Of a stretch of 47,643 nt of DNA, positions 933 to 42,900 are shown piece by piece (positions within the stretch are counted from its first letter, which is position 1; each line of letters begins with the position of its first letter). Below the pieces are notes generated by a model, which did not search any database, was not told the origin of the DNA, and saw nothing but the letters and a program-made list of their open reading frames with translations. The translations under genes and the position numbers were made by a program. Origin of the DNA: Boothiomyces macroporosus (taxonomy: Eukaryota > Chytridiomycota > Chytridiomycetes > Rhizophydiales > Terramycetaceae); contig JADGKB010000106.1 in the NCBI GenBank assembly GCA_027604185.1, forward strand, positions 1 to 47,643, written 5' to 3'.

Positions 933-1219
933 ATGGAGAATGAAATTAAACAAAAGCAACTGGAAATGTACTTTGCATTGACAATAGACTAGAATCGCTA
1001 ACAAGCACAAATAAAACACTCACCGGATTCAACAAGTTTTCGAAAAAGCGGTTTAATGAAATATCCATCGACTTTAATTTCATTGACCAGATGCACAAGG
1101 ATTTACTAAATGTGATTAGTAGAACCAGACAGCTGCGGATGAAGATTCAGAAAGATTTCCCAGATCAGTATGACCAAGTGATAGCTGAAATTGGAGAGCG
1201 AGTTGAACTAGACGATTAA
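933..1219 (+). CDS. KXD1: KxDL-domain protein (BORC subunit KXD1-like)
   Basis: 88 residues after removing a 20-nt intron at 968-987 (gtactttgcattgacaatag), which joins two frames into 89 codons. The product resembles animal KXD1 in its helical core: an E-SLTSTNKTL segment, then F-N-K-x-S-x-x-R, then a segment equivalent to the KxDL signature (here HKDL) followed by R-x-R-x-L-x-x-K. KXD1 belongs to BORC, which couples lysosomes to Arl8 and kinesin. The whole protein is predicted helical with no membrane segment. ATG 933 gives a compact product. An open frame upstream (ATG 864) ends at a TAG just before 933 and could be an alternative 5' exon if a GT..AG segment there is spliced, so the N-terminus is uncertain. 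Confidence 0.7.
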
Positions 1220-1280
1220 CGAATAAATAATCTCTTGAAAAGCATTTTCCTTTTTTGGATTTTTAAAAGTTGGTGTGAGA

Positions 1281-2376
1281 ATGCAAGCGACTGAAGAACC
1301 AAAAGAAAAGGGATTGTATCCACCAGTAGACCCATACCATGTGTTTGGATTCCCTTGCCACAACTTTCACGAGCTGTATGTTGAATTGACTGGGAATCCA
1401 TTAGGAACACCAGTATTATTCTTGCATGGAGGGTAATCATTGCTAATGTAGGCCAGGTAAATTAATTTAACGCAGGCGGAGGAACTACAGCTTTGGACAG
1501 ACAATATTTCAATCCCCAAAGATATCGAATAGTTATATTTCATCAGAGAGGAGCAGGAAGATCGAAGCCTGCTGCCAGTCTGGAAGATAATGACACTTGG
1601 TCATTAATCTTTGATATTGAAAAGATTAGAAAGCACTGCAATATTGAACGATGGGTTGTCTTTGGAGGCTCTTGGGGTACTTTGTCGTTAATCCAGGATC
1701 AACGCTTGCTTTGGCTTATGCCATCGAACATCCATACAGAGTTAAAGCAATGATTCTGAGAGGAGTGTTTTTATTGCGTCCAAAGTAATAGGCTTTAATT
1801 CAGGGAGTTGAATTGGTACTATCAAGAAGGAGGTGCATCAAATATCTTTCCAGACTATTGGGAAGACTTTGTTAGGATCATCCCGCCTGAAGAAAGAAAT
1901 GACATGATTGCAGCTTACTACAAGAGATTGACTGGTACGGATGAAAAGGTAATGTTGGAGGCTGCTATGGCATGGAGTCGATGGGAAATGGCTACTTCCA
2001 AATTAGAAGTGGATGAGAAATTACTAAAGAAAGTGCAAGATCCAATGTGGGCTTTACAATTTGCTAGAATCGAATGCCATTACTTTATAAACAAAGGATT
2101 CTTCAAAACCGATAACCATATTTTGGATAACATTGAAAAAATCAACCACATTCCTTGCCACATTATTCAGGGAAGATATGGTAGTTTAATATTGATATAG
2201 ATGTTGTTTGCCCTATGAGATCCGCGTGGGATTTGAAACAAAAGTGGCCAATAGCACAATTGCACATTGTAATTAATGAATAACTGTAGATGCCTACTAG
2301 TGGTCATTCTGCTACTGAAGTTGCGATTACCAAGAAGATTATTGAATGTACTGATGAATATCAAACCATGCTGTAA
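1281..2376 (+). CDS. Prolyl iminopeptidase-like alpha/beta hydrolase (S33)
   Basis: 325 residues in seven exons. Introns are 1433-1451, 1457-1475, 1677-1696, 1785-1803, 2181-2200 and 2269-2289 (19-21 nt). Removing them gives exactly 326 codons. The family cleaves N-terminal proline from peptides in the cytosol. Visible motifs are the oxyanion hole HGGPGGG, DQRG-like HQRGAGRS, nucleophile elbow GGSWGST, the cap-domain run with IECHYF, the acid loop QGRYD and the catalytic His in GHS. Every one of HGGPGGG, GGSWGST and GRYD is interrupted by an intron and is restored only by splicing. Length matches the family. ATG 1281 is the first in frame. Confidence 0.93.
1452..1456 (+). other. 5-nt microexon (gccag)
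   Basis: Five bases lie between two 19-nt GT..AG introns (1433-1451 and 1457-1475). They complete one Gly codon, supply the Pro codon and begin the next Gly codon of the HGGPGGG motif. Without the exon the conserved Pro is lost and the frame breaks. Confidence 0.88.
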
Positions 2377-2580
2377 TACGCCGTTGCAGGCAAACATACA
2401 TCTTCCTAGACAGATGTATGTCATCCCACAATGGTAATAAAGCAACTTGAATTACGTCTACTGATTGAAACGTAAATTTGCAGTTTTGACTTTTACATCA
2501 AGATGAAACCTCGTTGTAATTATGTAACTGCATAAATTTTACTAACCGTTCTTCTAACTGTCTCTCATCAATCATTAACA

Positions 2581-3796: not shown

Positions 3797-3836
3797 ATAA
3801 CTGTAAATACCAAATATTTATTCTATTATTGTCAGA

Positions 3837-4882
3837 TTAGGTACTAATTTGATTTTGTTTTTTGAAATATAAATGGCATTTCCCAACTATAAAGAATGTA
3901 ACTGCCGAAGACGGAGCAGCTTTCAACATTGAAGGCCATATTCCTTTAAATAATGCTAGGAATCCTTCATTCAAGATAATTCCTCTAGCAGTTGAAATGA
4001 CACCTGTCGATTTTGGGACGTCTGATACTATAATTTCATTTCTTACAGGTCCTTGAACTTGTAATCTCTTCCTAACATTAATATAGTGTACCTAATTACA
4101 TCAAATGGCATGGTACAAGCTTTGCTAAACATTCCAGCAAGTCCTCCGCATACAAGATCTTTCCATCCTCCTATATATGGCTTAAGTGTAGGATAAATAT
4201 CTTCTATCCTGCTGTATCTCTGTTTCAAAAACCTATGGGACTCAAAGACGAGCCCCATTTGTGGCATAATTTGTATTGCAGAAGGCAGCACTCCTCTATA
4301 GAATCCTCTTATGCCTTCCATCTTATAAATATCAACTACAGCTCCATATATACTATTATATATTGCAGAATTTCCTTGAACTGCAAACCTAGTTCGTAAT
4401 AAATCAAATGGAAATGTAATTAACGTGGCTGTTATTCCAGAAATAGCTCCTGAAGTAAAGGTATGAAGGCTTTTAGGTACTGCCTTTGCTATTGTGGTCT
4501 ATATTAGTATTAGGTACATCCGCTTTGAAATATTCTGTCATTTTGTGGTATGTATAAAATTGTACTGCACCATAGGATAAATATAGATATTCCGCAGCTA
4601 AATTCCCCTTCCATAGAGCCTATATTACCAATTACTTACAGTAATCCCCTCTTCTTCCACAATTAACCTAGCAGACTGCATTATTGTCTTGTATTTTCTT
4701 TCCTCTGACCATAATTTCGATGATTGAAGCTGAATTAGTATTGGGTACCTGAAGCCTGGATTAATAATTCTGTACCTAATCTTGATTACATCAAAAGGCG
4801 ATATGACGAATCTTGAAATTACTCCTGCTGTTGCACCGCTGACTGTGTGCTGAAACGACGTTAATTTTTCCTTTTCACTCAT
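3837..4882 (-). CDS. Mitochondrial carrier, thiamine-pyrophosphate (TPC1)-like
   Basis: 328 residues in four exons. Introns are 4620-4639, 4499-4517 and 4072-4091 (20, 19 and 20 nt), giving 329 codons exactly. Mitochondrial carriers have three repeats of about 100 residues, each with P-x-[DE]-x-x-[KR]. Here these are SPFDVIKIRY, FPFDLLRTRF and MPFDVIRKRL. The segment with LWKGN and a Tyr-rich stretch after repeat 1 resembles yeast Tpc1 and animal SLC25A19, which import thiamine pyrophosphate across the inner membrane. Substrate assignment rests on this resemblance and is moderate, while the carrier fold is certain. The stop is about 40 bp from the convergent helical-repeat gene. Confidence 0.88.
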
Positions 4883-4955: not shown

Positions 4956-6286
4956 TTAATATTTATAATCTAAAGAATCGACCGTCAAGGTCGGACTGAT
5001 ACAATTGTGGGTGTTTATACCTGGAGAAAGTGTCTGGAGATGAGTGTGGTGTGTGGTCTCAGAATAAGCAATCTCTTGGTCAACTGCTGATAGCTCGTGG
5101 TAGACTCTATCCAGTTCAATCTGGTGGGACAACTTCATATTCACCAACACAGTCTGCCGCTGATCCAAGAGTTTTTTCAAAGACTCCAATTCGGATTCAA
5201 AAGAAGCTTCCAGCCGAGATTTCGAATCATCCAACTCCTTTAGTGTATCTTGAATTTTAGAAACTTGTTTTCTAATTTTTGGGTTATTATTCCGGGCTTG
5301 GAAATAATTTGATGAGCGCTTATCGTAGTCTATTTTTTCCGGATTAGTTGTAGTCTGAAAATTAGGGCAGGACTGTGATCTGGCTAATTTTTTCTCTTGG
5401 GATAAATCCTGTAGAGTGGCGAATGATATGCTATCTGCATCCATGAATCTGGTGATCATATCTTCGTACTCTACCAAAGTTTTTTGTAGTTTATCCATTT
5501 CGATTTGGTGCGCTGAATTCATCAAGGATATTTCAGACTGTAAAGATGCAAGTGAAAACTTTAGTTGTTTGATTTCCAGCGATTTGGATGACTGCATACA
5601 GGTATAAAGTTGTTTAAGATGGAAAAAGTTTTGGTTCAGCACTTCAACCAGCTGTTCATTTGAACTGGATTCGGGATCAAGAGTTATCTTATACTGGGAT
5701 ATAATGTGATAAATTTGGGTTATTTTCGACTCGATGCGAAGCTGATTCTTCTGCTCCCAAGATTGGACTTGATCCAAGTTGAATTGACTGGAAGGGAATA
5801 CTTCGTTAAACCGAAGTATTTCCAGTATCCCTTCGATTTCCATATCAAAATAATCTTTGAGCTTAAGAAGCTTTTCCTTTTCCACTTGCCTTTTTTCTTG
5901 CAGTGCTTTGACTTGTTCATTCTCGCTTTCAATCTTTCTTTGTGTATTTAAAAGCACTTGTTCCAGGAACGAAATCTGCTCCCTTAAGCGCTCATTTTCA
6001 AGTTGTATCGAAGCAGAAGGGAAAATAGCATCTGAAATGTTGCCAAACAACTCTTTAAATATGCTTACAGATGGTCCTGCTATATGATACAGAATAAATG
6101 CCAAATAACCTTTCATTAGTAAATATTACTGTACAGGATCATTTTTCCTTTGAGGGGATTCTTTCTGACCATGGCACGGGCCAGCGGAAGTAGAGGACTG
6201 ATATACTGAAGCAGGGGCTGAAAATTAAACATCAGCACCTCCAGTACATGTCCTTTGGAGTGCTTATATCCTGAATACTGTTTCAT
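4956..6286 (-). CDS. Coiled-coil protein with an N-terminal membrane segment
   Basis: About 436 residues from ATG 6286, with one 20-nt intron at 6110-6129 (gtaatatttactaatgaaag). One hydrophobic stretch (about residues 50-65, SYLAFILYHIAG) is followed by long Glu/Gln/Lys-rich heptads (about 90-150, 200-260, 310-370) and a disordered C-terminus. This layout fits a membrane-tethered coiled-coil such as a golgin or tether, but I recognise no family. The 5' end is uncertain. The frame stays open upstream to about 6310, and another open stretch beginning near 6375 might be a first exon, but I found no convincing micro-intron to join it. Confidence 0.65.
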
Positions 6287-9195: not shown

Positions 9196-10588
9196 TTATA
9201 ATGGAACTTGTTCTAAGCGAATGATTACATCAGTTAAAATAGGAATCAATCTAACATTAGCAAACCTTACTCTTTGATCGGAGAAGACCTCTTGACTCCA
9301 TAAATGGAGTTTTCAGTAGCGTGCTTTTGGCAAAGAATCAATCCGTCATTAATAGCAGCCTTGTCTGGCTTATTACTCAGTGTCAAAAAACAATTGACAC
9401 ATCTAAAACACTCCTCGTGCCAGATCCACTCGTTCAGAGTAAACCCATCAGTATCAATACCAGTTTTGCAGTTCTGACATACACTATACTTTTGGAGTTC
9501 CTTTTCGTTGTGAATTGACCCATTTGATTTCAATGTAGATATCTGTTCAACGTTTTCCAAAAATCTAGAAATCCATCTTTCCCTTGGCGAGTAGTCGTAC
9601 TATATAAACAAACAATTACCAGCTTGATTGCATGATGAAGCCCAGATTTAATCAATTCCAACATTGAATTTGCAAACGCGGTTACTCTAGCAATGTTATC
9701 TTGAGGGTCTGGAGAGTAACTCTTTACCAAAATAGAGAACCAGTTCAACAATGAAGTCAACAATTTCTTGCATTGAGCCATCCCAGTTCCTTCCAAATTC
9801 TTTGCTCTCAGTTCCTCATCCAAGGACGAAATCAATGTAAGGAGGTACCCAACGTGGTAAATCAACAGCTTTTGATTCTTCAGCTGGACGCTGCGATTTT
9901 TCAATGACGATGAAACCACAATTTCCGCTACTAGCTCAGCGTTAATCTCTTCAAAGCTTGACAATACAGATAAAATCTTTTCCACAATTAAAATGGTATC
10001 GACATGGATTTCAAATTGATCTCGTTAGCAGGTATTTACCTTTAGGACTAAACTTTTCATAGTTTGCGACTTTGACGTTGCAGCCCCACAGCTGGTTAAG
10101 CATAAAACAAGATGGATGCCAGATAGCATCCTGCTCCTCGACCAAATTCTCAGAGACAAAGGTATTACACCCTGCACAAAAAGTGCCACCAATTAAAAAA
10201 AAGTGTTGTTCACAATAAATTTGGCCTTCATGTTCCAAATACTGCTCATACGACCTAATTTTTTCATCACAGACAACGCAACTAGGATTAGAATCGATTA
10301 CCAAAAGTGCTCCTCGTGGTATTTGGCAGAAGTGGTTGATACGTATGGACCCCTCAAGGGCTTTGTACAATGTGTACACAACAAATCCTTTCTTCTAAAA
10401 TAATCTAATTCGCAAAAGAACTGCGGTGGTCTGTTTGGTTCCTGAATACTAAAGTACTGGTCTGCGATGGGTTCGCTGCAGTCCTGACAGTTGAAGCATT
10501 CCAAATGAAATTTCAAGTCTTTTGAGCGCATGTAAGGGCCGGAAATATCCTTTTTGCAATGAAAACATATCCTCTCTGCATGCACCAT
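9196..10588 (-). CDS. Four-LIM-domain protein (Lrg1/paxillin-like) without RhoGAP
   Basis: 437 residues in five exons. Introns are 10282-10301, 10021-10039, 9600-9619 and 9251-9270 (19-20 nt), giving 438 codons exactly. LIM domains are zinc-binding double fingers used as protein-interaction modules. LIM1 starts CFHCKKDISGPY, LIM2 CTHCTKPLRGPY, LIM3 CAGCNTF (its second half is degenerate), and after a helical middle region of about 170 residues LIM4 starts CQNCKTG and ends in CQKH. This LIM-LIM-LIM-helical-LIM order resembles the N-terminal half of fungal Lrg1 Rho GTPase-activating proteins. However, the chain ends about 18 residues after the last LIM with no RhoGAP domain. The last intron removes a stop-containing segment, so the final exon is inferred. 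Confidence 0.87.
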
Positions 10589-11001: not shown

Positions 11002-11804
11002 ATGTCTTGTGTTGGAAAAATCGCCGCGCCTCATTTTATGGTGAATTCAGAAAAAGTTTCACTATTTATCATGCCTTGGGATCCAACAGTCAGACCGCCA
11101 GCTTCGTACAGAGGACCAGCACTAATCATCGCCTTCATCGCAACAATATATTACTCTTTTGGACTGATGAGCTACTCGGCTTCCGACTCCACCATTTATA
11201 TTACACTCGTTCAGTTATTCATGTCGATAGTGGGAGTATTTGCGATCAGAGTTGAACACTTGCTTGCAGTCATGGTTTATGTAGTCTATTTCATACTCAA
11301 TTTTATATCGGACACTGTTTTGATTTCAATATACGAATTTGCCCAAGTGGATCAGCTTCGATCAGACCTGATGTCATCTTGTATTGCAACTTCTTCACCA
11401 GACGGAAGCATTTCTCAAACTCCGGATCAGTGCCAGGGAATAGTTGAATCGCAAATACGATACTATATTTCATACTATGTTATTGTTATTGTCGTGGAGG
11501 TAATTAAGTGTTAATTTAGCTTATCGCTTCCTTAATCATGTTTATGTACTATCACCGATTGAAAATGCGAATAATAGAGGAAGCAGCGTATAATGAAGAA
11601 ATGGCTGCAGCCGCTAATGAACCCGCGATTTATGAAATATGCAGGGAAGAAGTGGAGCTTGCAAATCTCCCTCCTTATACTCCGCCAGAAGAAAAACCTC
11701 CAAAGTATGACGTTTCTCTATCCACCAATACTTTGGGAGAATCCAGCCATCCAACCATCCCTGACGGTGAAGAGGAAGACCAAGTGGTTGATTTGCAAAA
11801 GTGA
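11002..11804 (+). CDS. Four-helix membrane protein with C-terminal PPxY motifs
   Basis: 260 residues with one 20-nt intron (11500-11519), exactly 261 codons. Four hydrophobic segments lie at about residues 40-58, 66-85, 88-110 and 150-180, with a Cys-containing hydrophilic loop between the last two. The cytosolic tail is acidic and carries LPPYTPPEEKPPKYD, i.e. two PPxY-type motifs. These are the recognition sites of WW domains in NEDD4/Rsp5 ubiquitin ligases, so the tail may direct ubiquitination and sorting. The first ATG in frame is 11002. ATG 11071 would give a shorter N-terminus. No family is recognised. The stop is 37 bp from the convergent hydratase gene. Confidence 0.75.
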
Positions 11805-11841: not shown

Positions 11842-12764
11842 TTACAACTTTGCATCAGTTGAATGTAGTTTACAAACACCTCCAGTAAAGACGACTTTTT
11901 CTCCTACAAAACAGGTGAACGCAATTACAACTTCTTTACCACTGGATACTTTCCACATTCTGGTTTCCAACTTGTCTCCAGGATAGACAGGCGAAGAGAA
12001 TTTGCCACCAATAGACTTGAACAACTTGTCGTCATTGCCAGCAAAGTGTTTTAGAATCGCAGCACTAGCAAAGCCAAGCGTACACAATCCATGCAGAATA
12101 GCGCCTTTCATTCCGATTCTTTTCCCAATTGAAGGATCCGCATGTAGCGGGTTGTAATCGCCAGATAGTCTGTAGAGTAATGCTTGCTCTGGATGAGTCT
12201 GATCTACTTGAACTGCATCTGGTTGACGTGCTGGCGGTTTGATTTCTTGAGCTTTAGGCTTTGGTGGACCTATATTACAGTTTAAATACCTCCGAATCCT
12301 CCTGCTCCAATTACAAATGCAGAAGAAACCATTTTAATCAGTGGTAGCCCTTTGCCATCGACTAAAGTTGATTCAGTAGCTACAACCATAGATTTACCTA
12401 CATCGTACACCCCAGCCAATTTGGTCTTTAATGTGAATTTCCCACCGGTTTTAGGTAAAGGATTCAACACTTCATAGTATTGCTCCCCGTGTACGAGTTT
12501 GTTGAGGTTGATTTTTGGCATTCCAGGGATATTCCAAGTCTTGCTGGACTGAGCTGCATAAGAATTAATGTCCAAGTAAGATCCTTTTAGTGGCAAGACG
12601 AGAGCATAGGTAGGGAACGCTGCAAAGTTCTTGTCCAATTCATAAGTGTATTTGAGATCATGAACCCCAATACCTAGGGCATAAAGAATGAGCTCTCTTT
12701 GATTGAATGTAACAGTTTCGTCTGGATACTGGTATCCTACTACTTTGCTTTGATCAAAAGACAT
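11842..12764 (-). CDS. Peroxisomal (R)-specific enoyl-CoA hydratase 2 (standalone MFE-2 hydratase)
   Basis: 300 residues in two exons; intron 12270-12289 (20 nt). The protein matches the hydratase 2 part of multifunctional enzyme type 2. An N-terminal non-catalytic hotdog half is followed by a MaoC-like hotdog with YRLSGDYNPLHADP and the G-x-x-x-P/S-I-L-H-G helix (GAILHGLC). Asp and His of the first motif are the catalytic pair in this family. It hydrates trans-2-enoyl-CoA to (R)-3-hydroxyacyl-CoA in peroxisomal beta-oxidation. The C-terminus is AKL, a type 1 peroxisomal targeting signal. Fungal MFE-2 normally fuses this domain to dehydrogenase domains, whereas here it stands alone, as in plant ECH2. 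The start at 12764 is the first in-frame ATG. Confidence 0.93.
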
Positions 12765-12891
12765 TGGGGAAAGAATCTCCAATGCAGAAATCCTGATATC
12801 GGCCGCGCCATATGATTGAACAAGATTCGGCCAAAGTGAACCCTGGATTAAATGGGCTGTATTCCTTCAAAATTAACCTTTATTTACATAT

Positions 12892-13840
12892 TTAAACCTC
12901 AATTTCCCATTCAATCGTTTGGGTGGATTCTCTATGTTCGCGACTGGATGGGTATAGATTTGTTGGTATCTTTAGTGAAGTTATTGACGTAGAGAATAGA
13001 GTATCCAGGTTCTTTACGCTGGTAAACACATCCTTGGAATCAGTAGATGAGACGCTCTTTGGTTGGAAAAAGGCCAGCCTTACCAAACTGTTGAAAACCA
13101 GCAGCATCATTGAAGAATGAACCGCCAAGACCGCACTAATGAATAGTTCCGAGATTGCATAAAACTCTGGGACTAGATTTGTGTAATTGATCAGAAAGAA
13201 TGAGGCTAAACTGATCCAGTCACAAAAACAACTCCCGATAATTGCACTAATACATTTTAAAACAGCTCTATATGATTCAGATCCATGTAGCGGTTTGTGA
13301 GTGCTTACCAAGTAAGCAAGATAAGATGCCTGAATATTGTCATAGAATACACCACCAACAGTGAATAATAGACCCACATTGGATGCCAACTAGAGTTAAC
13401 TATAGAAATACTGAATGGAGCCAGCTCTTGGAACTTTCTAATCTCAATACAATTACCGTCGCCCGCAATGATAAAACAATAGTTCCAAATACAATAGTGC
13501 ACACTTTAAATACATATATCCTGTCAGGAGTGATGATGCGTGGTCGGAATATCCCAAAAATATCTAATATCTGGATATTCACCAAGTAAATTCCCAAAGT
13601 TACTGCTGACCATAAAAAGATTACCGCTTCCAATTCAGATCCACTTGGATGGAAATATAAGTGAAATGACATTCCCATTTGTATCATATTAAGTACTTGC
13701 AGAAGCACCATGTGTGGTGTGAATTTTTGAATATGTTTGCGTTTCAATAGGATCGTTAGTGAGGTAAAGGTAGTGATATATCCAACGACTATAAGTACAT
13801 AATTAAATACAGTCCATGCTGTTACTAGAGTTGCAGACAC
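12892..13840 (-). CDS. Seven-helix membrane protein A (tandem GPCR-like family)
   Basis: About 308 residues; one 22-nt intron at 13390-13411. Seven hydrophobic segments are visible. Family landmarks shared with four downstream paralogues are a basic loop R-K-H-I-Q-K-F-T-P before helix 2, YDNIQ at the end of helix 5, CDWI in helix 6, and H-S-S-M-M-L-x-V-F-N in helix 7. The C-terminus is IEWEIEV. Helix 7 lacks the retinal-binding Lys, so it is not an opsin. No in-frame ATG precedes the conserved start. The open frame begins at a GTG (13840), so the true first exon, or a start through an unresolved micro-intron, is missing. Function is unknown; a receptor role is inferred from topology alone. 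Confidence 0.8.
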
Positions 13841-14430: not shown

Positions 14431-14475
14431 TACAAAAAATGAATTAACTGCTGATATCCAATGCAGCTGGACTCC

Positions 14476-30284: not shown

Positions 30285-30555
30285 TTATTCGTAATCTGGA
30301 GTCTTTCCAGGCACCAGCATTGCGATATTATTCCCGTTCAAAAGCATATTTTCCAAGTGATTCTTTTTCATTCCATCCGCAGTCCTTTCATACTCTGTAA
30401 CATCCGTTAATACCATATTCACAAAGTCATCAAAGCCCAACAGCGTCCCGACAAACTCTCTTTCCGATTTCATCAGCACCCAGATTTGCGATCCGATGCA
30501 TTTATCTACAAGTTCTGCGTTAGTTGAAATTACCAAGCGGAAGTATTTGCGACAT
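30285..30555 (-). CDS. LSM5: U6 snRNA-associated Sm-like protein LSM5
   Basis: 83 residues, two exons, intron 30515-30533 (gtaatttcaactaacgcag, 19 nt). Splicing creates [16 protein letters not shown], matching the start of LSM5, while the unspliced frame lacks it. Sm1 ([15 protein letters not shown]) and Sm2 ([13 protein letters not shown]) motifs are intact. LSM5 is part of the LSM2-8 ring on U6 snRNA in the nucleus and the LSM1-7 ring in mRNA decay. It is therefore part of the machinery that must excise these micro-introns. Its ATG is 20 bp from the divergent ATG at 30576. Confidence 0.97.
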
Positions 30556-31065: not shown

Positions 31066-32613
31066 AACCAGCGAGTGTGTGATTCTGGAAACCAGCACTT
31101 TTCTGACCGCGTTCTTTAGTTTGATTATCCACAGTGGTCTGAGTTTATGGAAGAGCAAACTCTTAACAATCTTGAAAATGAGTGAATTGTGATTTCCTGA
31201 TACTTGCGGATATCTTACGAGGTTCCCTAAATCATGAGATATATCCCTGATTAGCACCGCTTGTGGACGGGTGAATGCATAGTAAGAGTGCTTGCCATGA
31301 TAACTGCCCATTCCACTTTCACCGACGCCTCCGAATGGTAAATCTTCAATGGCAGCATTCATCAAACAGTCATTCGCCATTACATGCCCAGCGTTGACTT
31401 TGGAGATAATCTTTTCGATCGTTTTGCGATTCTTGGAGAATGGATGGATGGATAGAGGAGTAGGGCCAAATTTGTTTACCAATTCAATTGCTGAAATTAA
31501 AAGAAATTACCTTCATCCACAGATTCAATTTCAATAATTGGAATAATAGGTCCAAAAAGTTCTTGGGACATGATTGGGTTGGTCTTTGGATCCTTGCCGA
31601 CTCCAGTGAGGATTGTTGGAGGTACATACAATGTATTCTTATCCCAAGTTCCTCCAAGCTCTTCTACCGTACCAGATACCTTTAATTGATCCTGCACAAG
31701 TTTATTCAGTCTGTTAAAGTGGTTTTCAGAAACAATGTGGCAAAAGTGGTCGGATTTACCAGGATCGCCTTCAAACAGAGTGGATACAGCCTCCTTGTAA
31801 TGCTTTACGAATTCTTTAGCTACTTTCTTGTGGACCATAACTATGTTAATGAAAAGTACCATAATCAGGGGCAATGCAGGTTTGTCCAGCATTAATGGTC
31901 TTGCCCCAAGCAACGCGAGTTGCTGCAATCTTTGGATCGACAGTGTCATCAACAATAACTGGACACTTTCCTCCTAGTTCGAGCAACACTGGAGTAAGGT
32001 TCTTTGCTGCTGCTTGCATAACTATTCTTCCAACTTGTGTATTCCCAGTGTAGCAGATGAAATCAAACTTTTGCTTCAACAACGCAGTTGATTCTGGAAC
32101 CGCACCTTCAACAACTTGTACAGCCTTACTGTCCAAATATTTTGGAATCAATTTTGCGAGTAAAGCAGAAGTGTGAACACTGATTTCGGATACTTTTACA
32201 ACTGCAGCATTACCGCCGCCAATTGCACCAATCAATGGTAAAAGTGTCAATTGAACAGGATAATTCCATGCTCCGATAATCAGTACAACACCATGCGGTT
32301 GACGACGTACTTGTGCTGTATCTGCCAAGAAAACTGCTGGGTTAGTTGCAGGATATTCATGCGTCATATAATCATCCAATCGTTCTACCATATCCACAAT
32401 TCCGTTCGCAACAATTCCCAGCTCCATAACAATCGATTGCGAAGTTGATTTATGCAGATCAAGCTTCAAGGCATTTGCAATAGCTGCTTCTTCCTTTGTA
32501 ATGAGGTCATACATCGCATAGAGTTGCTTAATACGGAATTCCTTTTCTCTAGTAAAGCCAGCATCGTAGTTTTTTCGTAGGGCTGATACAATGTCTGCGA
32601 TTTTCTGTTCCAT
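31027..32613 (-). CDS. Fatty aldehyde dehydrogenase, ALDH3 family, tail-anchored
   Basis: 515 residues in three exons; introns 31841-31859 (19 nt) and 31491-31510 (20 nt), 516 codons. NAD-dependent ALDH3 enzymes oxidise long-chain aldehydes to fatty acids. Motifs seen: GAWNYPVQLTL, general base Glu in LELGGK, nucleophile Cys in NAGQTCIAPD, and C-terminal PFGGVGESGMGSYHGK. A final hydrophobic segment (SLVLFAVGYYIG) with NKK at the end is a tail anchor, as in human ALDH3A2 and yeast Hfd1, placing it on ER, peroxisome or mitochondrial outer membrane. The second splice junction restores DYVMVHKK of the family. An open frame upstream (32614-32795) is out of frame and probably leader. Confidence 0.95.
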
Positions 32614-32978
32614 CGTTGTTTGGCAAAAATGTTAGTCACGCCACCTGTAGTTTCACAAGTGCGGGCCTTATTCCTTTGAATGCGGAATAGTAACCAATCA
32701 ATGATGATCCCCATAAGATGAACCTGGAAAGAGAAAATTATCCGTTCGCAAACGTATATTTCAAAGATGTTTACATTTAAAATACATATATTCAACCTCG
32801 ATCATTATTTAGGGTGGATAGAGGGTAACGTAGTTGGGTGTGAGATAGTCAATCCAAGATTGACATGATTGTCATTCTTGCCATCGTTTGGTAACATTGG
32901 TAACGGCACATACTCCTAAAGTCAAAAGCGATTACCTTGACTTTGCTCTCTTTATGACGCGGTTGTGATTTTGTCGTA
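32614..32978. other. Intergenic, nothing firm
   Basis: A short minus-strand open stretch (ATG about 32717, MGIIIDWLLFRIQRNKAR) precedes and overlaps the ALDH start in another frame. It could be an upstream ORF. Otherwise no feature. Confidence 0.3.
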
Positions 32979-34553
32979 TCAATCAACAGCGGCAGATTGG
33001 TTGCTTTCTCCTGCTTGATACTTGGCAACTAGATTAACATTAAATACTTTTTGCAATTGAATTTGCTTTCCAAAAGAGTTACTCTTGGTATATTCCTTCT
33101 TTTTCATCCTTCTAACTCTGGTGTTTCCCATTCCAACAGGGAACCGTTCGTCCTGCTGTTTCACTTTTGCATAGTAGGCTGAATTATTGGCTGTGCTCGT
33201 CGATGTGCTGGAAACTATGGAATGAGAATCTGAATTGTCTATTTTTGATTTTTCTGGATGATTTACATGAACTGAGTGGTGAGACCCATGCGCGTGTGTG
33301 CGGTTATTAGCGTGTTTCGCAGGCTTTTTTGTTTCCTCATCGTGCGCAACTTCTTTAGGCTTCTCTGCCTGTTTTGGTGGTTTTTCTATGGTGGTTTCTG
33401 CAACTACCGTCTGTTCCGAGTTGACCACTTTTTCTTTCTTTATATAATTGGAATTAGTGTGAGGAATCTCTTTTGGCTCTGAATGTTGCTGGGTTAGTTT
33501 AGAGTACCTTTTTTAATGACGTTGGTCGTGCTGCTTTAGCTTCTGCTGCTTCGGTGTACTCTCGAAAGAATGGATGTTTTAAAGCCTCTCGGGATGTTAT
33601 TCTTTGTAAGGAAGGAATTACCTGATATCTGGGTCATAGATCAATAATGAAGTTAGTAGGTCAATGCATTCGTTCGAAACATTTGGAAGAAGGGCAGGAA
33701 GCCCAGTCCCTTCTTTCGGAGTGAAATTGTACTCTGGGGCTATTCCTTTTGGTCTACAAGTAAGCATATTGTTACCCAAGCATTTTCTTTAACAGCTTCT
33801 GCGAAGGGGTTCCCAACACTCCATGGATACGATGCAGTTGGTCTAGTTCATTAGAGCCCGGGAATAAAGGCGCCTTTGTGATAATCTCATAAAGAACGCA
33901 CCCTGCTCCCCATAAATCCATTTTAAAAGTATAAATCCCATCACAAAGTAAACATTCTGGCGATCTATACCATCTGGTAGCAATGTATTCGGTATATGGC
34001 TGCTTTGAATGTATTCCCCTGCATGATCCAAAATCAGCTAGTTTTATCGTGTTTTCCTTGATTAGGATATTTTCAGGTTTGATATCTCGATGGAATATTC
34101 CTTTACTATGGTAAAAATCAATCAACCTATGCATGTAGTCTATTGCTTTGCATATTTGGTAAAAGTAGTTTTTGGCTCTGCTCTCTGTCATCACTGTGTT
34201 TTTTCTAGATATCAATTCGTACAGGTTGCAGTCCATCAGTTCGAAATTCAGTGCCAACACACCATGCTTCTGATCGCTATGGTTACATTTCGCTTACAAA
34301 ATCACCTCTATCAGCTGAATAACATGTGTATGCGGGTTCAGTCTCCTTAACGCCTGTATCTCTCGCAAATTCTGAATCTCTTCAAACGTACTATTGAATC
34401 GCTTCCTAAACCTCTTCATTGCATATATCTTTCCTGTCGTCTTGTGCTTTACTTTTAATACTTCTGAAAATGTTCCTTCACCCAGCTTTTGGGTCATACG
34501 GAAATCTAGTTTAGAATTATATTCGTGCCTTCAAATTTTGAATGTTCTGCCAT
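32979..34553 (-). CDS. MOK: MOK/RCK-family protein kinase
   Basis: 482 residues in seven exons. Introns are 34506-34528, 34277-34297, 34106-34126, 33754-33775, 33602-33621 and 33489-33507 (19-23 nt), 483 codons exactly. MOK (RAGE) is a CMGC kinase related to MAK and ICK. The match is close: GEGTFSEV, catalytic Lys in YAMKRF, NLREIQALRRLNPH, ELMDCNLYELI, HRDIKPENIL, DFGSCR, activation loop with T-E-Y and RWYRSPECLL, and NELDQLHRIH. The tail (about 340-482) is His/Lys/Ser-rich and disordered. The first intron begins GC and the third is stop-free and a multiple of three. Family members regulate cilia in animals and protists, so a ciliary role here is inference. Confidence 0.93.
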
Positions 34554-35055: not shown

Positions 35056-36120
35056 ATGGGTCAAACACTATCAGAACCAGTAGTAGAAAAGCACACAACT
35101 AGCGGAAGGGATAACAGGATCAGCTGGGCTGCCAGCGAAATGCAAGGATGGAGAATTAGTACTAGTGTCCTAACAAATAGCCATGGAAGACGCCCATACC
35201 ACTCTAACAGATCTTGAACAGGACAACAAACATATATCGTTCTTTGCTGTTTTCGATGGACATGGTGGTACACATGCAGCCAAGTTCAGCGGAAAGAATT
35301 TACATTTGAACATTGTGAAAACAGAAGAGTTTAAGGAAGGAAAATATCAAGAGGCTCTGAAAAATGGCTTTTTAAATACTGATAGCGAATTGCGAGCAGG
35401 TAGATTTGTATTAAACAAGACCCTACCCATGAACGTGAACCTTCTGGTTGTACAGCTGTAGCAGTTCTTATAACGGATGATCATACCATTTATTGCGCAA
35501 ATGCTGGAGACTCTAGAGCAGTACTATCAAACTCTGGAATCGCTGTACCTCTTTCTTTTGATCACAAACCATCTAATCAGGGTAGAGTGCAATTAATGAT
35601 AGGCGAATACAATCGTATTGTTGCTGCGGGTGGATTTGTAGAGTTTGGAAGGGTTAACGGTAATAATCACTTTAACATGAGGTAACCTTGCGCTCTCTCG
35701 GGCTATTGGTGACTTTGAATTCAAAGCAAATCCAGACAAGTCGCCAGAAGAACAAGCCGTTACCTGTAACCCAGATATTTTGGAAAGGGCACATCAAGCG
35801 GGAGACGAATTCTTTGTTATCGCCTGTGATGGTACGATTTGCTAACAACAGGTATTTGGGACTGCATGACCAATCAGCAAGTTGTAGATTTCGTCAGTGA
35901 AAAGCTCTATTATGGGATGGGCTTGCCGGAAATCTGTGAAGCAATGACTGACCGTTGCTTGGCTGCAGACCCAATGGCAGGAATTGGATGCGATAATATG
36001 ACTGTTATCATCTGTGCGGTATTAGCTGGACAAACTGTAGCTGAATGGACAGAAAAAGTTGTAAAACGTTACAAGGAAACAGCCCCAGTATCTAATATTC
36101 CTGAGGAAGGTGTCAATTAA
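35056..36120 (+). CDS. PP2C-type protein phosphatase, N-myristoylated (Ptc2/3-like)
   Basis: 319 residues in six exons; introns 35159-35180, 35400-35419, 35582-35602, 35660-35681 and 35832-35851 (20-22 nt), 320 codons. Metal-dependent Ser/Thr phosphatase. Motifs: MGQTLSEPV (Gly2 myristoylation context, as in yeast Ptc2/3), MQGWR-x-x-[63 protein letters not shown] and DNMTVIICA. Several of these span introns. All metal-binding Asp positions look present. Ptc2/3 enzymes counter stress MAP kinase and checkpoint signalling. Confidence 0.95.
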
Positions 36121-36423: not shown

Positions 36424-39400
36424 ATGCCGGCGAAACATAGAACGGATATTGAATACATTGAAATTGTCGAAGTCCTGTATGACTACGTCCCTACCGAAGA
36501 TGGAATGCTGACATTGAAGCAGGGGGATTTGATTTATGTCCACAGCAAAGATAATTCAGGATGGTGGAATGGGACTGTTGGAAACACTTCAGGTAGAAAT
36601 TTATTTGACAATAGGTTGGTTCCCATCCACATGGATTAAAGGCGTTGAGATGGTTATTATCGTTTAATTGTAGCCTGAAATGGAAGAAGTGAGCAAGCAG
36701 CTGGAAGATTTAATTGCGGAGGATAACAAGGAAGCCGATGAGGACAAAGACGTAGTGGAGGAAGTAAGCGAAAGCCTAATTTAGCTTCCTGAGTTTTGGA
36801 GAAAGAAGCGAACCACTTCTGGGCAAATTTACTATTACAATACCAACACAAACCAAACAACTTACAACGTCAATGAAGTCAATGCGGTAAGTAACCTTTG
36901 CTTTTATTCCATTTTGAGCTCTTCAATTCCTTTCTTTGGAACAGTTGCTTATTTTTTAGCCTCTCAAAAAGCGTGCAAGCTTGATTTGGAAAGACAATGA
37001 AGTGGTAGCAAACCAAGATATCAAGGCTCTTCCAACTCCAAAAACAGCGCAATGGATTGCAGGGCCTCCAACTCTTTTGGAGAAAGGAGCAACAATTACT
37101 TGGGAAGTATTGATCAACAACATCTTGCAATCCATTTCTGATTTGAATTATTCTGCTAAAAATGGGATCAAGCAGAACTATATCTCTCAATCATCTCAAA
37201 TTATTACTGCTGTTCGGGACATGCTTTCATGCTCTGGAACAGTGTCTGTTGATTCGCCTACGATAAAGCAAAACAGAGCATTGGCTACCTATCACAAGAG
37301 TATCATGGCCTCCATGTCTAGAATGATTTTAGCGGCAAAAGTGTCTTCAGGTATTTGGCCACCACCTGACTCTGTAAGGACTTTGCGCCATCATGCTGGT
37401 CAGGTGCTCTTGGCAGTGCGTAACTTTGTGTCTACTGCTCAAGATTTGAATTTGCTGTTGGAATCACCTCCTGACGTCCCAGTAGAAGAGTTTGATATTA
37501 AAGGAAATGATTTATCTCAAGCCGAATTATTGTCCAACGTAGAACAAACCAATGAAATTGTCATGAATTCAGTTGCAAATCTAATCACCAAAATTACTCG
37601 TGATAAGGCACTATCTACTCATTTGATTGATCTTGTCAAGAAGACTGTTGCCGAAGTTGGGCAACTATTGTCGTTTATGGAAGAAATTGATTTCGAAGAT
37701 CCAAACGAAAACAGTGCTGGCGAAGAATATAGCCAGAAAAAGCAGGTACTGTACACAACCCTGAATGCCCTGGTTTCCTCTGCACACACAGGCGAGGATG
37801 GCTTTGCTCCTGCGAACGCTGTTAATTCAATTTTGGACAACTCAACTGCTCTTCTAAAAGCTGTTGAAGAATTTGTAACTTCATCAAAAGTATTGATTGA
37901 TCATTCTAGCCATCATTTTGAAAAGAGGCTCCATGAAGAAAACGAAAACTCTGATTTGTTACTCCTACAAAAACGTGCCCAAGAATTGAGCTTTTTGGAA
38001 TATGGTCAAAGTGCTAACAGTGCCACTTCTCAATCCTCCAAGCCGGGTTCGCCGTCACCTTGGAGTAGAGAAAGAACTTTATCGGGAGACACTGAGAGGA
38101 AAAGTAGCATTAGAATGTCAGGGGGATCATTCAATACCAGTCGCAATTCTGTAGACAACAACTCCTCACAAGACACTCTTGTAACACGCTTTTAATATTA
38201 GAGCATCAGACCCTGGATTTTGAAAAATGAAGTAAACTATGATTTATCATTCAACAAAGAAGGTGCTGTCAATGGTGGCACTTTTGTTGCCCTTGTGGAA
38301 AGACTAACTGTCCACGATCAACCAATTGGTATTTAGAGTACTTATCTAGACCCTATTTTCTTAAACTCATTTTTAATGACTTTCCATTGCTTTGGAACTG
38401 GACAGCAGCTACTTCAGTGCTTAAAAGATCGATATAACCTGGAGCCACCCCAAGGTATTACTCCAGAAGAGTACAAGATTTGGACCGAAAAGAAGTTGAG
38501 TCCAATTCAACAAAGAGTTTGCAACACCTTGAAAACTTGGATTGAAAACTATTGGATTAACAGATTCGACGAAGTTTGTTTGGACGACGTTCATGATTTT
38601 GCAAATGGAGTAATAATGGAGACTCAACCTGCGCTTGCCACTCAAATTTTGGGTCTAGTTACCACAATGGTTTTCCTTATCTGACTATAGATCAACAGCG
38701 ATGTCTATGGCACGCCATTCATGTCTTCAAAAACAAAGAAAATCATCAAACCAGAAGAATACCAACCACCAATATTACCAAGGAATTTGAAGAGATTTTC
38801 TGTCTTAGATCTTGATCCCTTAGAGCTTGCGAGACAGTTGACTATTCTATTTTCAAACATCTTTATCAAGATCCAACCGGTGGAGCTGATGAACCAAGAG
38901 TTTGCAAAGAAATACTCCAACATTGCGGTCAATGTACGGGCAATGTCAGATGTTTCCAATAAGGTTACTGGATGGATTATCAGTTGCATTGTACAGGAAG
39001 AGAATGTCAAAAATCGCGCAGCTATATTAAAGTTCTTTGTCAAGGTTGCTTGTGTAAGGCTCTTTTTAACTTAGAAACTACTGGCGTTAAACAATTTCCA
39101 TGCACTATTCGCTGTACAGAGTGCATTTTCCTCTTCTACTGTCAGCAGGCTGAACAGAACATGGTCAACTTTGTCTGAAAAAACTATGGTTTTGTTCCAT
39201 TCTATCAACCAAGCCACAGATATAAATAGAAATTATGCAGAGTACAGACAGCTGTTGAGACGTGCTACATTGCCTGCCATTCCATTCTTGGGGCTTTTCC
39301 TGACTGACTTGACATTCACCGACGATGGAAATGCAAATACTAGAAATAACGGAAGGCTGATCAACTTTGACAAATACGCCAAAACCGCCAGAATTATCAA

Positions 39401-39617
39401 GGATTTGACAAATTATCAAGTTCCTTATGCCATCACCGAAGTTTCTGAAATCCAAGATTTCCTGCGCCAAGTGATGTATGAGCATGGCAATAGGGACCCT
39501 CAAGAGCTGTATGAAATCTCTCTCCGTTTGGAACCTAGGACTCCTACAAATACAGATAATCCAGAACTCATTTTGGAGCATAAAATTGAAATGCTTCTTC
39601 AAGCTGGAATGCTATAG
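36424..39617 (+). CDS. Ras guanine nucleotide exchange factor 1 (SH3-WW-RasGEF_N-RasGEF)
   Basis: 990 residues in nine exons. Introns are 36593-36614, 36653-36673, 36764-36784, 36887-36959, 38181-38201, 38329-38349, 38670-38690 and 39054-39074; all are 21-22 nt except the fourth, 73 nt. Total 991 codons. Domains: SH3 about 10-67 (ALYDY-type LYDY, NSGWW, WFPSTW), WW about 100-130 (LPEFWRKK, IYYYNTNTNQTTY), a helical middle region typical of fungal Cdc25-like proteins (GIWPPPDS, AGQVLLAVRNFV), a Ser-rich linker, RasGEF_N about 541-690 and RasGEF about 715-950 (LPAIPFLGLFLTDLTF, NGRLINFDKY). It loads Ras with GTP. Its paralogue follows 287 bp downstream. Confidence 0.95.
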
Positions 39618-39904
39618 AATAAATTTATCTTTTTTACAAAGGCATTTACGTAAGGGTGAATCATACTGTTGCTCATTCCCATTGATGCATTAAATTTTCA
39701 TCTATACTCCAACAATAGAAAATGACGTGTAACCAAATAGAGAACTGGGCGGCGGAGGGTGCTTGTTCTTGCCATTGAGTGATTAATTACATGCGAGTGA
39801 CCACCTCCCATATTAATAACTGGAGTGCCGTATAATATCGTGGCGTCCTGTTTTGTGGCGTTTCAATCCTCTTTTTCCGTGCGCAAAGTGCTTTCAAACA
39901 ATTA

Positions 39905-42900
39905 ATGCAGCCTCCACGACGAGCAGACTTGGAGTACATTGAAGTCGTGCGAAGTTTACACGACTATACAGCGACAGAAGCCGGCGTATTGAACCTGAAA
40001 GCGGGTGATATAATATACGTGCATTCAAAAGATTCTTCTGGATGGTGGAGTGGAACCGTTGGCAATGAGAAAGGTAGCAATATATTAATGACTAGGTATA
40101 AATATATAGTTAACATGCAGGATGGTTCCCTTCGAATTGGATTGAAGCTGTGGAGACAGTAATAATTATCTCATTTAGGCCGAATCACCAAGTGCAAATA
40201 TAGAGAATGTAACAAAGGAATTGGAAGAAACCCCACCAGTATCGCCAGCCAAAACCACATTAGACAGGGATAGCAAGGCACCGGAACAGCTCCCTCAATT
40301 CTGGCGAAAGAAAGAAACCCCTTCGGGACAAGTATACTATTACAACACACAAACTAATCAAACAACTTATAATTTAGAGCAAGTGATGGCGGTAAGTGAT
40401 TTACATCATATTACAATCAGAGCAGGACTAACCCTAGACCTCGGTAAAGAAAAGAGTGAGTTTAATCTGGAAGCAGAATGGAGTGGTTGCTAATCATGAA
40501 GCAAAGCCATTGCCATCTGCCCCTCAATCAGCTTCTTGGGTTCCAGGGCCAAAATCCCTGTTGACGGATGTCGCAGAAATCAATTGGGAAATCTTGATCA
40601 ACAATATTCTAAAGTCAATTTCTGATTTAAATTATTCTGCCAAAAACGATATTAAATCAAACTATGTACAACAATCGGGACAAATAGTCAGAGCAATTAG
40701 GGATATGCTTGGTTGTTCAGGAACAATCTCTTCAGAATCAGTCATCATTCAATCCAACAGGGCACTCGCACAATATCATCAAAACATCATGTCTTCCCTC
40801 TCAAAAATCATATTAGCTGCCAAGGTAGCTGCGGGATTATGGCCACCGCCAGATGCTGTTCACAGTATGAGATATCAGGCTGGACAAGTCCTTTTAGCTG
40901 TCCGACACTTTGTTGCAGTTGCTCAAGATTTGGGGATTACTCTGGGACCCCTCCCAGAAGACGCAGCTGATGAATTCGATGTTAAAGGAAATGAATTATC
41001 AGACACTGAAATGGTTACAAGACTTGATCAAAATTGTGAAATTATCATGAATTCAATTGCCACTTTAGTCACCAAGATTACTAGAGACAGAGCATTGTCA
41101 ACTGGACTGATCGATATGGTTCGAAAAACAGTTACTGAAATTGGGCAGCTATTATCGATTATCGAAGATATCAAATTTGATACGTCTTTGGATGTAGATA
41201 ATCTTGTTGCAGATTTTATGCAAAAGAAGGGCAATCTCTACACAGTATTGAACGATTTAGTGAGCGCCTCGAGTACCGGCGAAGATGGATTCGCTCCGGC
41301 AAATGCTTTGGGATTGATGTTGGAAAGCGCCACCTCAGTTTTAGAATCTGTAGAAGATATTGTTGTGGCAGCAAAGTTGTTGATTGATCACAAAGAATTG
41401 ATTCTTCAAAAATCCTTGCAAAACGAAACAGAAAAATCAGAAGAGTCTGATTTGCTAGTGCTGCAGAAACGTGCTCAAGCATTAAACTTTTTGGACAACA
41501 GAAATAGCCAAAATAGTGCACATTCAATTACATCTGGTCAATATCCGCCAAGCTCGGTGTCCCCGGGTGGAAATTGGAGCAGAGACGGAAGAACATTATC
41601 TGCTGAGTCTCGTTTGAATAGCGGGGCCCCGACTCAAGAGCAATATGCATCCTACAGAAAAGGATCAATCAGTGGTATCCAAAGCGGCAGAAGAATATCA
41701 CAAGATGCAATCAACTCACCTCAAGATATGGGAAGTGCTTCGAAATTATCTCAATTCTTTGGGGAAGAGCCAGTTAACCAATCTGCACGTACTTCGGAGG
41801 TAACTGAATCCTAACATCAGAGTATGAGACCATGGTTTTTGAGAAAAGAGACCACCTATGATCTGTCCTACAACATGGAAGGAGCAGTGAATGGCGGTAC
41901 ATTCCAGGCATTGGTGGAAAGATTAACAGTTCATGACCAACCTGTTGGTAAGTCCTCTTTTATCATAGATCCTGGATTTGCACAGTCATTCTTGATGACA
42001 TTCCATTTGTTTGGAAATGCAGAGATGCTGTTCCGTGCTCTTAAAGGAAGATTTATGCTAGAACCTCCTCAAGGTCTAACACCAGAGGAGTTGAATATTT
42101 GGGTTGAAAAGAAGCTCACCCCCGTACAAAGAGGGGTCTGCAACGCGCTCAAGATGTGGATTGAACAATATTGGCTAGAAAGCAGTGATGATAGTTGTTT
42201 AGATGATATTCACGCATTCGCATCTGGAGAAATGATGGAGTATCAACCTCAAGCTGCCACAAAAATTTTGGAATTGGTTTCCAAAAAAGTTACTACTGAC
42301 GTTTATGGCACTCCTGTAGTTACTCCGAAATTGAAGAGAGCAAATCCACAAGACTATCAAGCACCTATTCTCCCAAAGAATTTGAAACGATTCACACTGA
42401 CCGATTTGGATCCGCTAGAAGTAGCACGTCAGCTGACGCTTATTGAATCAAATATCTTTTTGAAAATTCAGCCAGTCGAGCTAATGAAGCAGGAATGGTC
42501 GAGAAAGAATGGCCCTTCCTTGGCAGTCAATGTTCGTGCCATGACTGCAATGGCCACCAAAATAACTGGATGGGTTATTTGCACCATTCTGCAAGAAGCA
42601 GATTTAAAGCGAAGAGCATTTATTCTAAAGTTCTTTATCAAGGTAGCAGAGGTAAGTCAAAATTAACCATAGCGCTGTTTAATAATGAATAACTTTAACA
42701 CACTGTTGGCTATCCAGTCCGCTTTCAACTCTTCCACCATCAGCAGATTGAAGAAAACCTGGGAAGTATGTAGATTTTTAACCTAGTTATTATCATCTAA
42801 AACAAGAGGTGCTTTTGAAGTCTTGAAGAAGGCTACTGATCACTCAAGAAATTATGCAGACTATAGGCAGGCATTGAAAAGATCGGCTCTTCCCACCCTT

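Follow-up and report, generated by a model that had tools for sequence, protein, structure and literature searches.

Does a fungus excise introns of about 20 nucleotides (nt) as the ordinary substrates of its spliceosome? The question is raised by a contig of 47,643 nt (C106 in our numbering, analysed whole and hereafter called the window) from the assembly (15.2 Mb, 216 contigs) of the free-living chytrid Boothiomyces macroporosus (Chytridiomycota, Rhizophydiales, Terramycetaceae), the genes of which are interrupted again and again by GT-AG segments of 19-22 nt. We conclude that these segments are almost certainly U2-type spliceosomal micro-introns, close to the smallest tolerated size and spread over the whole genome; splicing itself we infer from what is directly seen, namely sequence motifs, their geometry, reading frames, homology, small nuclear RNAs (snRNAs) and protein factors.

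The case begins with a size peak that owes nothing to a prior on intron length, a property shared by the motif-pair counts, by a gene finder run motif-free or with uniform lengths, and by the set of 61 introns that the motif-free run returned. In the window, GTA...[CT]TAA[CT]..AG pairs number 17, 13 and 11 at lengths of 19, 20 and 21 nt, compared with about 2 each in Markov sequence, and 4 at 22 nt; between 23 and 79 nt the maxima are solitary values at 67 nt (8) and 30 nt (7). The wider sample adds to the window 20 stretches of 10 kb from contigs C1-C20 (200 kb, for a total of 247,643 bases), and in these other contigs the observed and expected counts are 61/7, 64/11 and 40/13 at 19, 20 and 21 nt, the highest value at any other length being 19/8 (70 nt). 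Starts with GTG, GTT, GTC, GC or AT gave no peak in these stretches comparable to that of GTA, and AT-AC and GC-AG introns, sought both as motif pairs and in gene-finder runs with altered end pairs, were likewise set aside for want of a comparable peak.

The motif-free gene finder, trained on long open frames and allowed GT-AG introns of 12-150 nt with equal probability, placed 61 of its 158 introns in the wider sample at 19-22 nt, compared with 5-12 of 117-139 for five pseudo-splice-site end pairs. Once self-trained on motifs, with lengths still uniform, it placed 246 of 434 there (five controls: 15-26 of 449-513). Its introns of 31-150 nt were fewer than in each control, and most of these picks are therefore probably noise. 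The modal length is 20 nt, and a refined model that does include a length prior assigned 369 of 395 introns to 18-23 nt. The resulting density, about 1.5 micro-introns per kb of genome, extrapolates to some 22,700 in an assembly that holds some duplicated stretches. A tighter pattern run over all 15.2 Mb gave 1083 matches versus 163 for the reversed pattern; it misses 19-nt introns, its first gap being one base too long, so that the count is a lower bound. Thus the proposal of a sequence-only reading of this contig, that micro-introns occur genome-wide, holds: the peak is present in the window and in the stretches of 20 other contigs and absent from the controls. Long introns as a class were considered and rejected, there being no excess of longer GT...branch...AG pairs to match the micro-intron peak; a slight excess does exist at 51-70 nt (GTAAGT, 7 vs 2.7; GTA[ACT][ACT]T, 108 vs 82). 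The alternative that small insertions, introduced by sequencing or assembly errors, break the frames by chance could appeal to the duplicated stretches of the assembly; given the common GT-AG ends, the fixed place of the branch box, the narrow length range and the recurrence in the stretches of 20 other contigs, we regard it as extremely improbable.

The internal geometry of the segments is equally constrained. Among 370 introns of the trained set, 125, 135 and 36 have the branch A at a distance of 13, 14 and 15, respectively, from the first G, and 149 and 124 have it at a distance of 5 and 6 from the last G; in the 61 motif-free introns the corresponding figures are 22, 22 and 4, and 24 and 22. 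The geometry is thus as tight as the sequence-only reading had described it, with the branch A usually 13-15 nt in and 5-6 nt from the end. A loosely scored YTAAY-like box is found in 339 of the 370 trained and 57 of the 61 motif-free introns. The 5' site consists of GTA with a weak A-T-T continuation; the minority starts in the trained set are GTT (0.07), GTG (0.03) and GTC (0.01). Phases 0, 1 and 2 are all in use (158, 124 and 88 of the 370). If retained, 42 of 85 introns of 19 nt, 92 of 141 of 20 nt, 61 of 98 of 21 nt and 15 of 37 of 22 nt carry a stop, and selection for stops in introns of 3n length was dropped as a candidate because these counts give no clear signal across 19-22 nt.

Removal of the segments restores conserved proteins, as had been claimed earlier. 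Eight window genes were aligned with homologues (RasGEF paralogues 1 and 2, proline iminopeptidase, DHTKD1, PP2C, protein kinase, mitochondrial carrier and aldehyde dehydrogenase), and 37 of their 46 junctions, judged by eye, are gapless within three residues on either side (35 at 19-22 nt, the others at 46 and 47 nt); no junction among the 46 contradicts removal, and the junction LPL|ELVDKC in LSM5 agrees. Both deposited B. macroporosus proteins that we compared are wrong at micro-introns, which is of some practical import: the RasGEF protein HK103_000478 is short of 20 WW-domain and 31 RasGEF-domain residues and retains a 21-nt intron as seven extra residues, and the iminopeptidase HK103_000455 lacks PGGGTTALDR, FLLRPK and the C-terminal part. 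In RasGEF, the sister strain JEL0866 carries at this site an insert that is likewise seven residues long but different, and the iminopeptidase of Terramyces sp. JEL0728 has a seven-residue insert at a micro-intron site, so that, as far as deposited proteins can tell, micro-introns probably extend through the family. Removal at the level of DNA or of translation, in the manner of the internal eliminated sequences of ciliates or of ribosomal bypassing, would also suit inserts that are short and break frames. However, it would account neither for GT-AG ends joined to branch boxes complementary to U2, nor for the use of all three phases, nor for the lack of a comparable peak with other end dinucleotides, and every spliceosome part that we sought was found; we give this alternative hardly any credence.

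Among the snRNAs, for which the search covered U1, U2 and U6, the 5' end of U1 is canonical, beginning AUACUUACCUG, both copies of U2 contain GUAGUA, and U6 contains the canonical ACAGAGA. Boxes of the form TATAAATA lie shortly upstream of the U1 gene and both U2 genes (loci L028, L022 and L023). The genes for Slu7, Prp18, SF1, Cwc25, Isy1 and Yju2 are all present, that for SF1 clearly so; U2AF2 is probable, with a match to much of the profile that includes four in-frame stops and scores below the cut-off, the same profile also giving matches in two control genomes out of 14. The nearness of the branch to the 3' site had led to the expectation that Slu7 or Prp18 would be lost; both are present, and this loss is rejected, as is that of SF1 or U2AF2. 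Cwc25 starts MGGGDLNLKKSWHP, with the same glycine plug as in human, and Yju2 starts MAERKVLNKY, which we take to be the usual start of this protein. The sequence-only reading had envisaged an unusual spliceosome geometry; a strongly altered machinery is not what we find, given the canonical snRNA elements and the presence of every factor sought, the one deviation met with being the N-terminus of Isy1. In mechanistic terms, the introns would have shrunk to near the minimum for this spliceosome, 19-22 nt; U1, with its canonical 5' end, would read the GTA at the 5' site, and the GUAGUA of U2 would pair with the YTAAY-like box.

Several observations weigh against this interpretation and have to be set beside it. 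G at position +5, with which U1 and U6 usually pair, has a frequency of only 0.18 and so is not favoured. No clear branch box is discernible in 31 of the 370 trained introns, and the box was scored loosely, without a shuffled control, such that the controlled evidence lies in the motif-pair counts. The U1 gene scores 68.8 bits in Rfam, just below the cut-off of 69.5. Nine of the 46 homologue junctions are undecided, as they adjoin a gap or are not covered by the aligned or conserved region. Finally, the length prior enters into the refined models, the set of 395 introns, the stop counts, the density and the trained branch set.

For the window, the refined models give 78 introns, of which 70 measure 19-22 nt. 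Judgement led us to put aside five long ones (32, 32, 35, 96 and 99 nt) as model artefacts and six short ones as doubtful (3823-3844, 12878-12897, 13789-13810, 29451-29471, 44473-44492 and 46575-46594). The credible introns of the curated models number 67: 64 at 19-22 nt and three of 46, 47 and 73 nt. The sequence-only reading had arrived at the same total but with 63 at 19-23 nt; the range is better given as 19-22 nt, 23 nt being rare (6 of 395 in the refined model), and its statement that nearly all introns are micro-introns stands with the addition that a few longer ones are real as well. The first and last introns that it had located are present (968-987 and 42766-42786), and the two that it quoted are exact, gtaattgcaactaatattag in DHTKD1 (22140-22159, minus strand) and gtaatttcaactaacgcag in LSM5 (30515-30533, minus strand). 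All introns below come from the refined gene models, any further basis being given in the line, and two very small exons are entered between their introns.

968..987, plus: intron, 20 nt, gene 933-1219; frame shifts if retained
1433..1451, plus: proline iminopeptidase intron 1, 19 nt; gapless against homologues (HGGPGGGT)
1452..1456, plus: proline iminopeptidase exon of 5 nt between two 19-nt introns; required for HGGPGGGT
1457..1475, plus: proline iminopeptidase intron 2, 19 nt; homologue alignment
1677..1696, plus: proline iminopeptidase intron 3, 20 nt; homologue alignment (GGSW|GSTLAL)
1785..1803, plus: proline iminopeptidase intron 4, 19 nt; 7-residue insert here in the Terramyces model
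2181..2200, plus: proline iminopeptidase intron 5, 20 nt; homologue alignment
2269..2289, plus: proline iminopeptidase intron 6, 21 nt; homologue alignment
4756..4775, minus: mitochondrial carrier intron, 20 nt; homologue alignment
4749..4755, minus: mitochondrial carrier exon of 7 nt between two micro-introns
4730..4748, minus: mitochondrial carrier intron, 19 nt; homologue alignment
4620..4639, minus: mitochondrial carrier intron, 20 nt; homologue alignment
4499..4517, minus: mitochondrial carrier intron, 19 nt; homologue alignment
4072..4091, minus: mitochondrial carrier intron, 20 nt; homologue alignment
6110..6129, minus: coiled-coil protein intron, 20 nt
9251..9270, minus: LIM-like protein (named by eye) intron, 20 nt
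9600..9619, minus: LIM-like protein (named by eye) intron, 20 nt
10021..10039, minus: LIM-like protein (named by eye) intron, 19 nt
11500..11519, plus: membrane protein intron, 20 nt
12270..12289, minus: MaoC-like gene (named by eye) intron, 20 nt
13390..13411, minus: multi-pass membrane protein intron, 22 nt
15822..15842, minus: multi-pass membrane protein intron, 21 nt
18042..18062, minus: multi-pass membrane protein intron, 21 nt
19303..19322, minus: multi-pass membrane protein intron, 20 nt
20577..20598, plus: phosphoesterase intron, 22 nt
21031..21050, plus: phosphoesterase intron, 20 nt
21961..21981, minus: DHTKD1 intron, 21 nt; homologue alignment
22140..22159, minus: DHTKD1 intron, 20 nt; homologue alignment
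23630..23649, minus: DHTKD1 intron, 20 nt; homologue alignment
23762..23781, minus: DHTKD1 intron, 20 nt; homologue alignment
24207..24226, minus: DHTKD1 N-terminal part, intron, 20 nt; model only, conservation too low for a homology test
25329..25347, plus: ERO1 intron, 19 nt
25571..25589, plus: ERO1 intron, 19 nt
26081..26099, plus: ERO1 intron, 19 nt
26246..26264, plus: ERO1 intron, 19 nt
26844..26862, minus: coiled-coil protein intron, 19 nt
27119..27137, minus: coiled-coil protein intron, 19 nt
29121..29140, plus: intron of the gene starting at 28702, 20 nt
29975..29995, minus: membrane protein intron, 21 nt
30515..30533, minus: LSM5 intron, 19 nt; LPL|ELVDKC
31491..31510, minus: aldehyde dehydrogenase intron, 20 nt; homologue alignment
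31841..31859, minus: aldehyde dehydrogenase intron, 19 nt; homologue alignment
32916..32935, minus: protein kinase tail intron, 20 nt
33029..33047, minus: protein kinase tail intron, 19 nt
33489..33507, minus: protein kinase tail intron, 19 nt
33602..33621, minus: protein kinase intron, 20 nt; homologue alignment
33754..33775, minus: protein kinase intron, 22 nt; adjoins alignment gap
34106..34126, minus: protein kinase intron, 21 nt; no stop if retained, homologue alignment
34277..34297, minus: protein kinase intron, 21 nt; homologue alignment
35159..35180, plus: PP2C intron, 22 nt; homologue alignment
35400..35419, plus: PP2C intron, 20 nt; adjoins alignment gap
35582..35602, plus: PP2C intron, 21 nt; no stop if retained, homologue alignment
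35660..35681, plus: PP2C intron, 22 nt; homologue alignment
35832..35851, plus: PP2C intron, 20 nt; homologue alignment
36593..36614, plus: RasGEF paralogue 1 intron, 22 nt; homologue alignment
36653..36673, plus: RasGEF paralogue 1 intron, 21 nt; close to alignment gap
36764..36784, plus: RasGEF paralogue 1 intron, 21 nt; homologue alignment
36887..36959, plus: RasGEF paralogue 1 intron, 73 nt, GTAAGT; one-residue gap at junction
38181..38201, plus: RasGEF paralogue 1 intron, 21 nt; homologue alignment
38329..38349, plus: RasGEF paralogue 1 intron, 21 nt; homologue alignment
38670..38690, plus: RasGEF paralogue 1 intron, 21 nt; homologue alignment
39054..39074, plus: RasGEF paralogue 1 intron, 21 nt; homologue alignment
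40074..40120, plus: RasGEF paralogue 2 intron, 47 nt, readable as tandem 22 + 25 nt (AG|GT)
40159..40178, plus: RasGEF paralogue 2 intron, 20 nt; homologue alignment
40392..40437, plus: RasGEF paralogue 2 intron, 46 nt, GTAAGT; homologue alignment
41800..41820, plus: RasGEF paralogue 2 intron, 21 nt; homologue alignment
41948..41968, plus: RasGEF paralogue 2 intron, 21 nt, no stop; kept as insert in deposited protein
42652..42672, plus: RasGEF paralogue 2 intron, 21 nt; homologue alignment
42766..42786, plus: RasGEF paralogue 2 intron, 21 nt; homologue alignment

The conventional introns of the RasGEF paralogues (36887-36959, 73 nt; 40392-40437, 46 nt) occupy the same position and both start with GTAAGT, a start seen in no more than 20 of the 361 micro-introns at 19-22 nt. 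A further segment, gtgagtttaatctggaagcag at about 40456, resembles a micro-intron and was rejected, as it encodes the conserved VSLIWKQ. The exons of 5 and 7 nt appear too small for two spliceosomes to assemble on both flanking introns together, given the known bulk of the machine, and removal would therefore be successive; introns separated by the 5-nt exon, or by none at all, would be taken out in sequence.

Can micro-introns abut without any exon between them? The 47-nt intron at 40074-40120 can be read as 22 + 25 nt joined AG|GT, and paralogue 1 has a single 22-nt intron at this place; locus L007 contains three consecutive 19-nt units. Among 259 candidates in the 247,643 sampled bases there are 3 zero-gap pairs (the pair in L016 is unverified); ten Markov sets gave none, which is a weak control in that each set contained only about 40 candidates. 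A strict double pattern matched 13 times genome-wide and not once when reversed, this control being also weak, as single micro-introns are themselves enriched. The 13 matches represent 10 distinct arrays (on C1, C5, C6, C8, C14, C20, C30, C41, C90 and C92), two triples being counted twice each and one array occurring in two identical copies (C20). The strict single pattern fits 101 of 370 micro-introns (about 27%), or some 6,200 in the genome, for which independent placement would lead one to expect an estimated one abutting pair, or perhaps 3 once AG is taken to be preferred in front of GT; the 12 distinct pairs observed exceed this several-fold. In one triple, on C8, two identical 19-nt units lie beside a diverged third, as would fit tandem duplication.

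Loci were fetched for 12 of the 13 array matches. Gene models place the arrays inside genes, with trivial models (two residues) for L041/L042 and uncertain ones for L045 and L048; the model for L043/L044 adds units on both sides of the array, and a BRE domain match spans it. All 113 residues of DYNLT1 align gaplessly with a solved Tctex-type 1 light chain across four 19-nt introns, tandem pair included, and the alignments of OGG1 and GID4 are gapless at the array. On this homology, removal of both units in DYNLT1, OGG1 and GID4 has to be regarded as firmly indicated. How they are removed is a different matter, as splicing in one step, with the outermost 5' and 3' sites of an array of 38-57 nt as its ends, would yield the same messenger RNA as unit-by-unit splicing, and the genuine introns of 46 and 73 nt indicate that such distances are allowed. 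Those introns, however, start with the strong GTAAGT, a feature of just one of the array units listed (on C14), whereas each unit in the pattern matches is complete in itself, with 5' site, branch box and 3' site spaced as in a micro-intron; single-step splicing is a real possibility, then, if somewhat short of an even chance, and the complete signals at the usual spacing lead us to prefer stepwise removal, as they suggest. At L016:9063-9155, micro-intron-like units of 20, 21, 21 and 22 nt are separated by 3-nt ATG exons, an array that is also frame-consistent as one 93-nt intron. Recursive splicing at zero-length exons occurs in long introns, and the AG|GT junctions are similar in that they regenerate a 5' site. 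The fungal stwintrons (PMC9024468) likewise call for more than one reaction per intron position; the Boothiomyces units differ from both in being complete introns of about 20 nt lying side by side, neither ratchet points nor nested.

The active-site N-terminus of Isy1 is the single deviation that we found in the splicing machinery, as far as gene models can tell. MARNxEKA is found there in the chytrids Spizellomyces, Fimicolochytrium and Borealophlyctis, and starts of this type are seen in the aligned animal, plant and slime-mould proteins (QARSAEKA in Ciona). It is replaced in our B. macroporosus model and in the deposited protein of Boothiomyces sp. JEL0838, and altered in the deposited models of Globomyces sp. 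JEL0801 and Kappamyces sp. JEL0680, genera that we take to belong to Rhizophydiales. Among the 120 homologues in the matches listed (719 above threshold), 68 have R[NSA]x[ED]KA within the first 40 residues; reading by eye gives 7 with near variants and 42 that begin too far in to be judged, and the last 3 are Rhizophydiales that lack the motif, in a comparison that left out Batrachochytrium. The alternative that the change is a gene-model error, or a drift of the clade unrelated to intron size, stands at about an even chance: the first exon in Boothiomyces is ambiguous, the other Rhizophydiales proteins are deposited models, only three in number and one from a close relative, and the intron sizes of Globomyces and Kappamyces lie outside the data; on the other side, all three recognised Rhizophydiales lack a motif present, exactly or nearly, in 68 + 7 of the 120 matches listed, and three frames of the 1.2 kb or so that precede the modelled start contain no R[NSAD]x[ED]K[AS] peptide of the canonical type. 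The alignment to solved Isy1 chains begins past this N-terminal part, at residue 29 or later. If genuine, the altered N-terminus might give room for the lariat loop of about 14 nt.

Micro-introns are known from ciliates, a nucleomorph and obligate parasites, the parasites having a reduced spliceosome. Those of the chlorarachniophyte nucleomorph, at 18-21 nt, are in the same length class as those of Boothiomyces but belong to the relict nucleus of an endosymbiont. In Stentor coeruleus (PMC9505925), introns are 15-16 nt long and position 10-11 is that of the branch A; neither Slu7 nor Prp18 was found, Cwc25 has lost its glycine plug, and the N-terminus of Yju2 is conserved while that of Isy1 is not. 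Boothiomyces resembles this ciliate in the near-fixed length and branch position, the canonical U2 and U6 elements and the opposite fates of the Yju2 and Isy1 N-termini; it differs in being a fungus, in intron length (19-22 nt) and branch position (mostly 14-16) and in keeping Slu7, Prp18 and the Cwc25 plug. The mikrocytids, obligate rhizarian parasites with introns of 16-17 nt, similarly combine many introns with an extremely narrow size range, and their spliceosome is highly reduced (PMC10245619), in contrast to that of Boothiomyces, in which every part sought was found. Paramecium and Nyctotherus (PMC5014332) have only very short introns, about 25 bp and thus somewhat longer, and are ciliates, and the opening of that abstract mentions no tandem zero-exon arrays; the dicyemids, opisthokonts like Boothiomyces with reduced introns, are parasitic animals with a longer mean of 38 bp (PMC6736024). 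Titles and abstract openings in the literature, exclusive of subscription journals and genome portals, yielded no account of micro-introns in any fungus, chytrids included. As far as is known, this is a known kind of intron in a new lineage, extreme for a fungus, and two features appear to be new: the zero-exon arrays, and a change of Isy1 held in common with Stentor without the other losses.

Some other features of the contig and the assembly are recorded here. At 43440-47643, a unit of 2102 bp (a GH19-type chitinase and a CAP-like gene, named by eye) is repeated, the copies agreeing at 2097 of 2101 positions, and the contig stops where the second unit does; this is either a tandem duplication or an assembly loop. 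Identical 3-kb stretches occur on C49 and C100 (L029/L030) and twice on C20 (L046/L047), either retained haplotigs or duplications. Secreted-looking proteins of ADKAALANDAxFQKL-like repeats are encoded at 1-72, 3266-3796 and 7705-8763, bases 1-72 being nearly identical, by eye and not exactly, to the last part of the 3266-3796 gene; the interval 13390-19760 contains, by eye, a tandem cluster of some five related multi-pass membrane proteins.

An encompassing scenario would join these strands: the Rhizophydiales spliceosome became fixed on one geometry; some longer introns are concatenated micro-introns, removed successively in a small-scale form of recursive splicing; duplication in tandem of an existing 19-nt unit gives rise to new introns; and the loss at the Isy1 N-terminus made room for the lariat, in parallel to Stentor. 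Taken jointly, these propositions are tentative and on the whole doubtful. Short of that scenario, a reduced spliceosome is seemingly not needed for micro-introns, every factor sought being found in this fungus; for a lariat loop of 14 nt, the change in Isy1 is perhaps required, and the loss of Slu7, Prp18 or the Cwc25 plug is not. The tandem arrays would offer a direct test of intron multiplication and of unit-by-unit splicing, and Boothiomyces a good subject in which to ask how small a removable intron can be.

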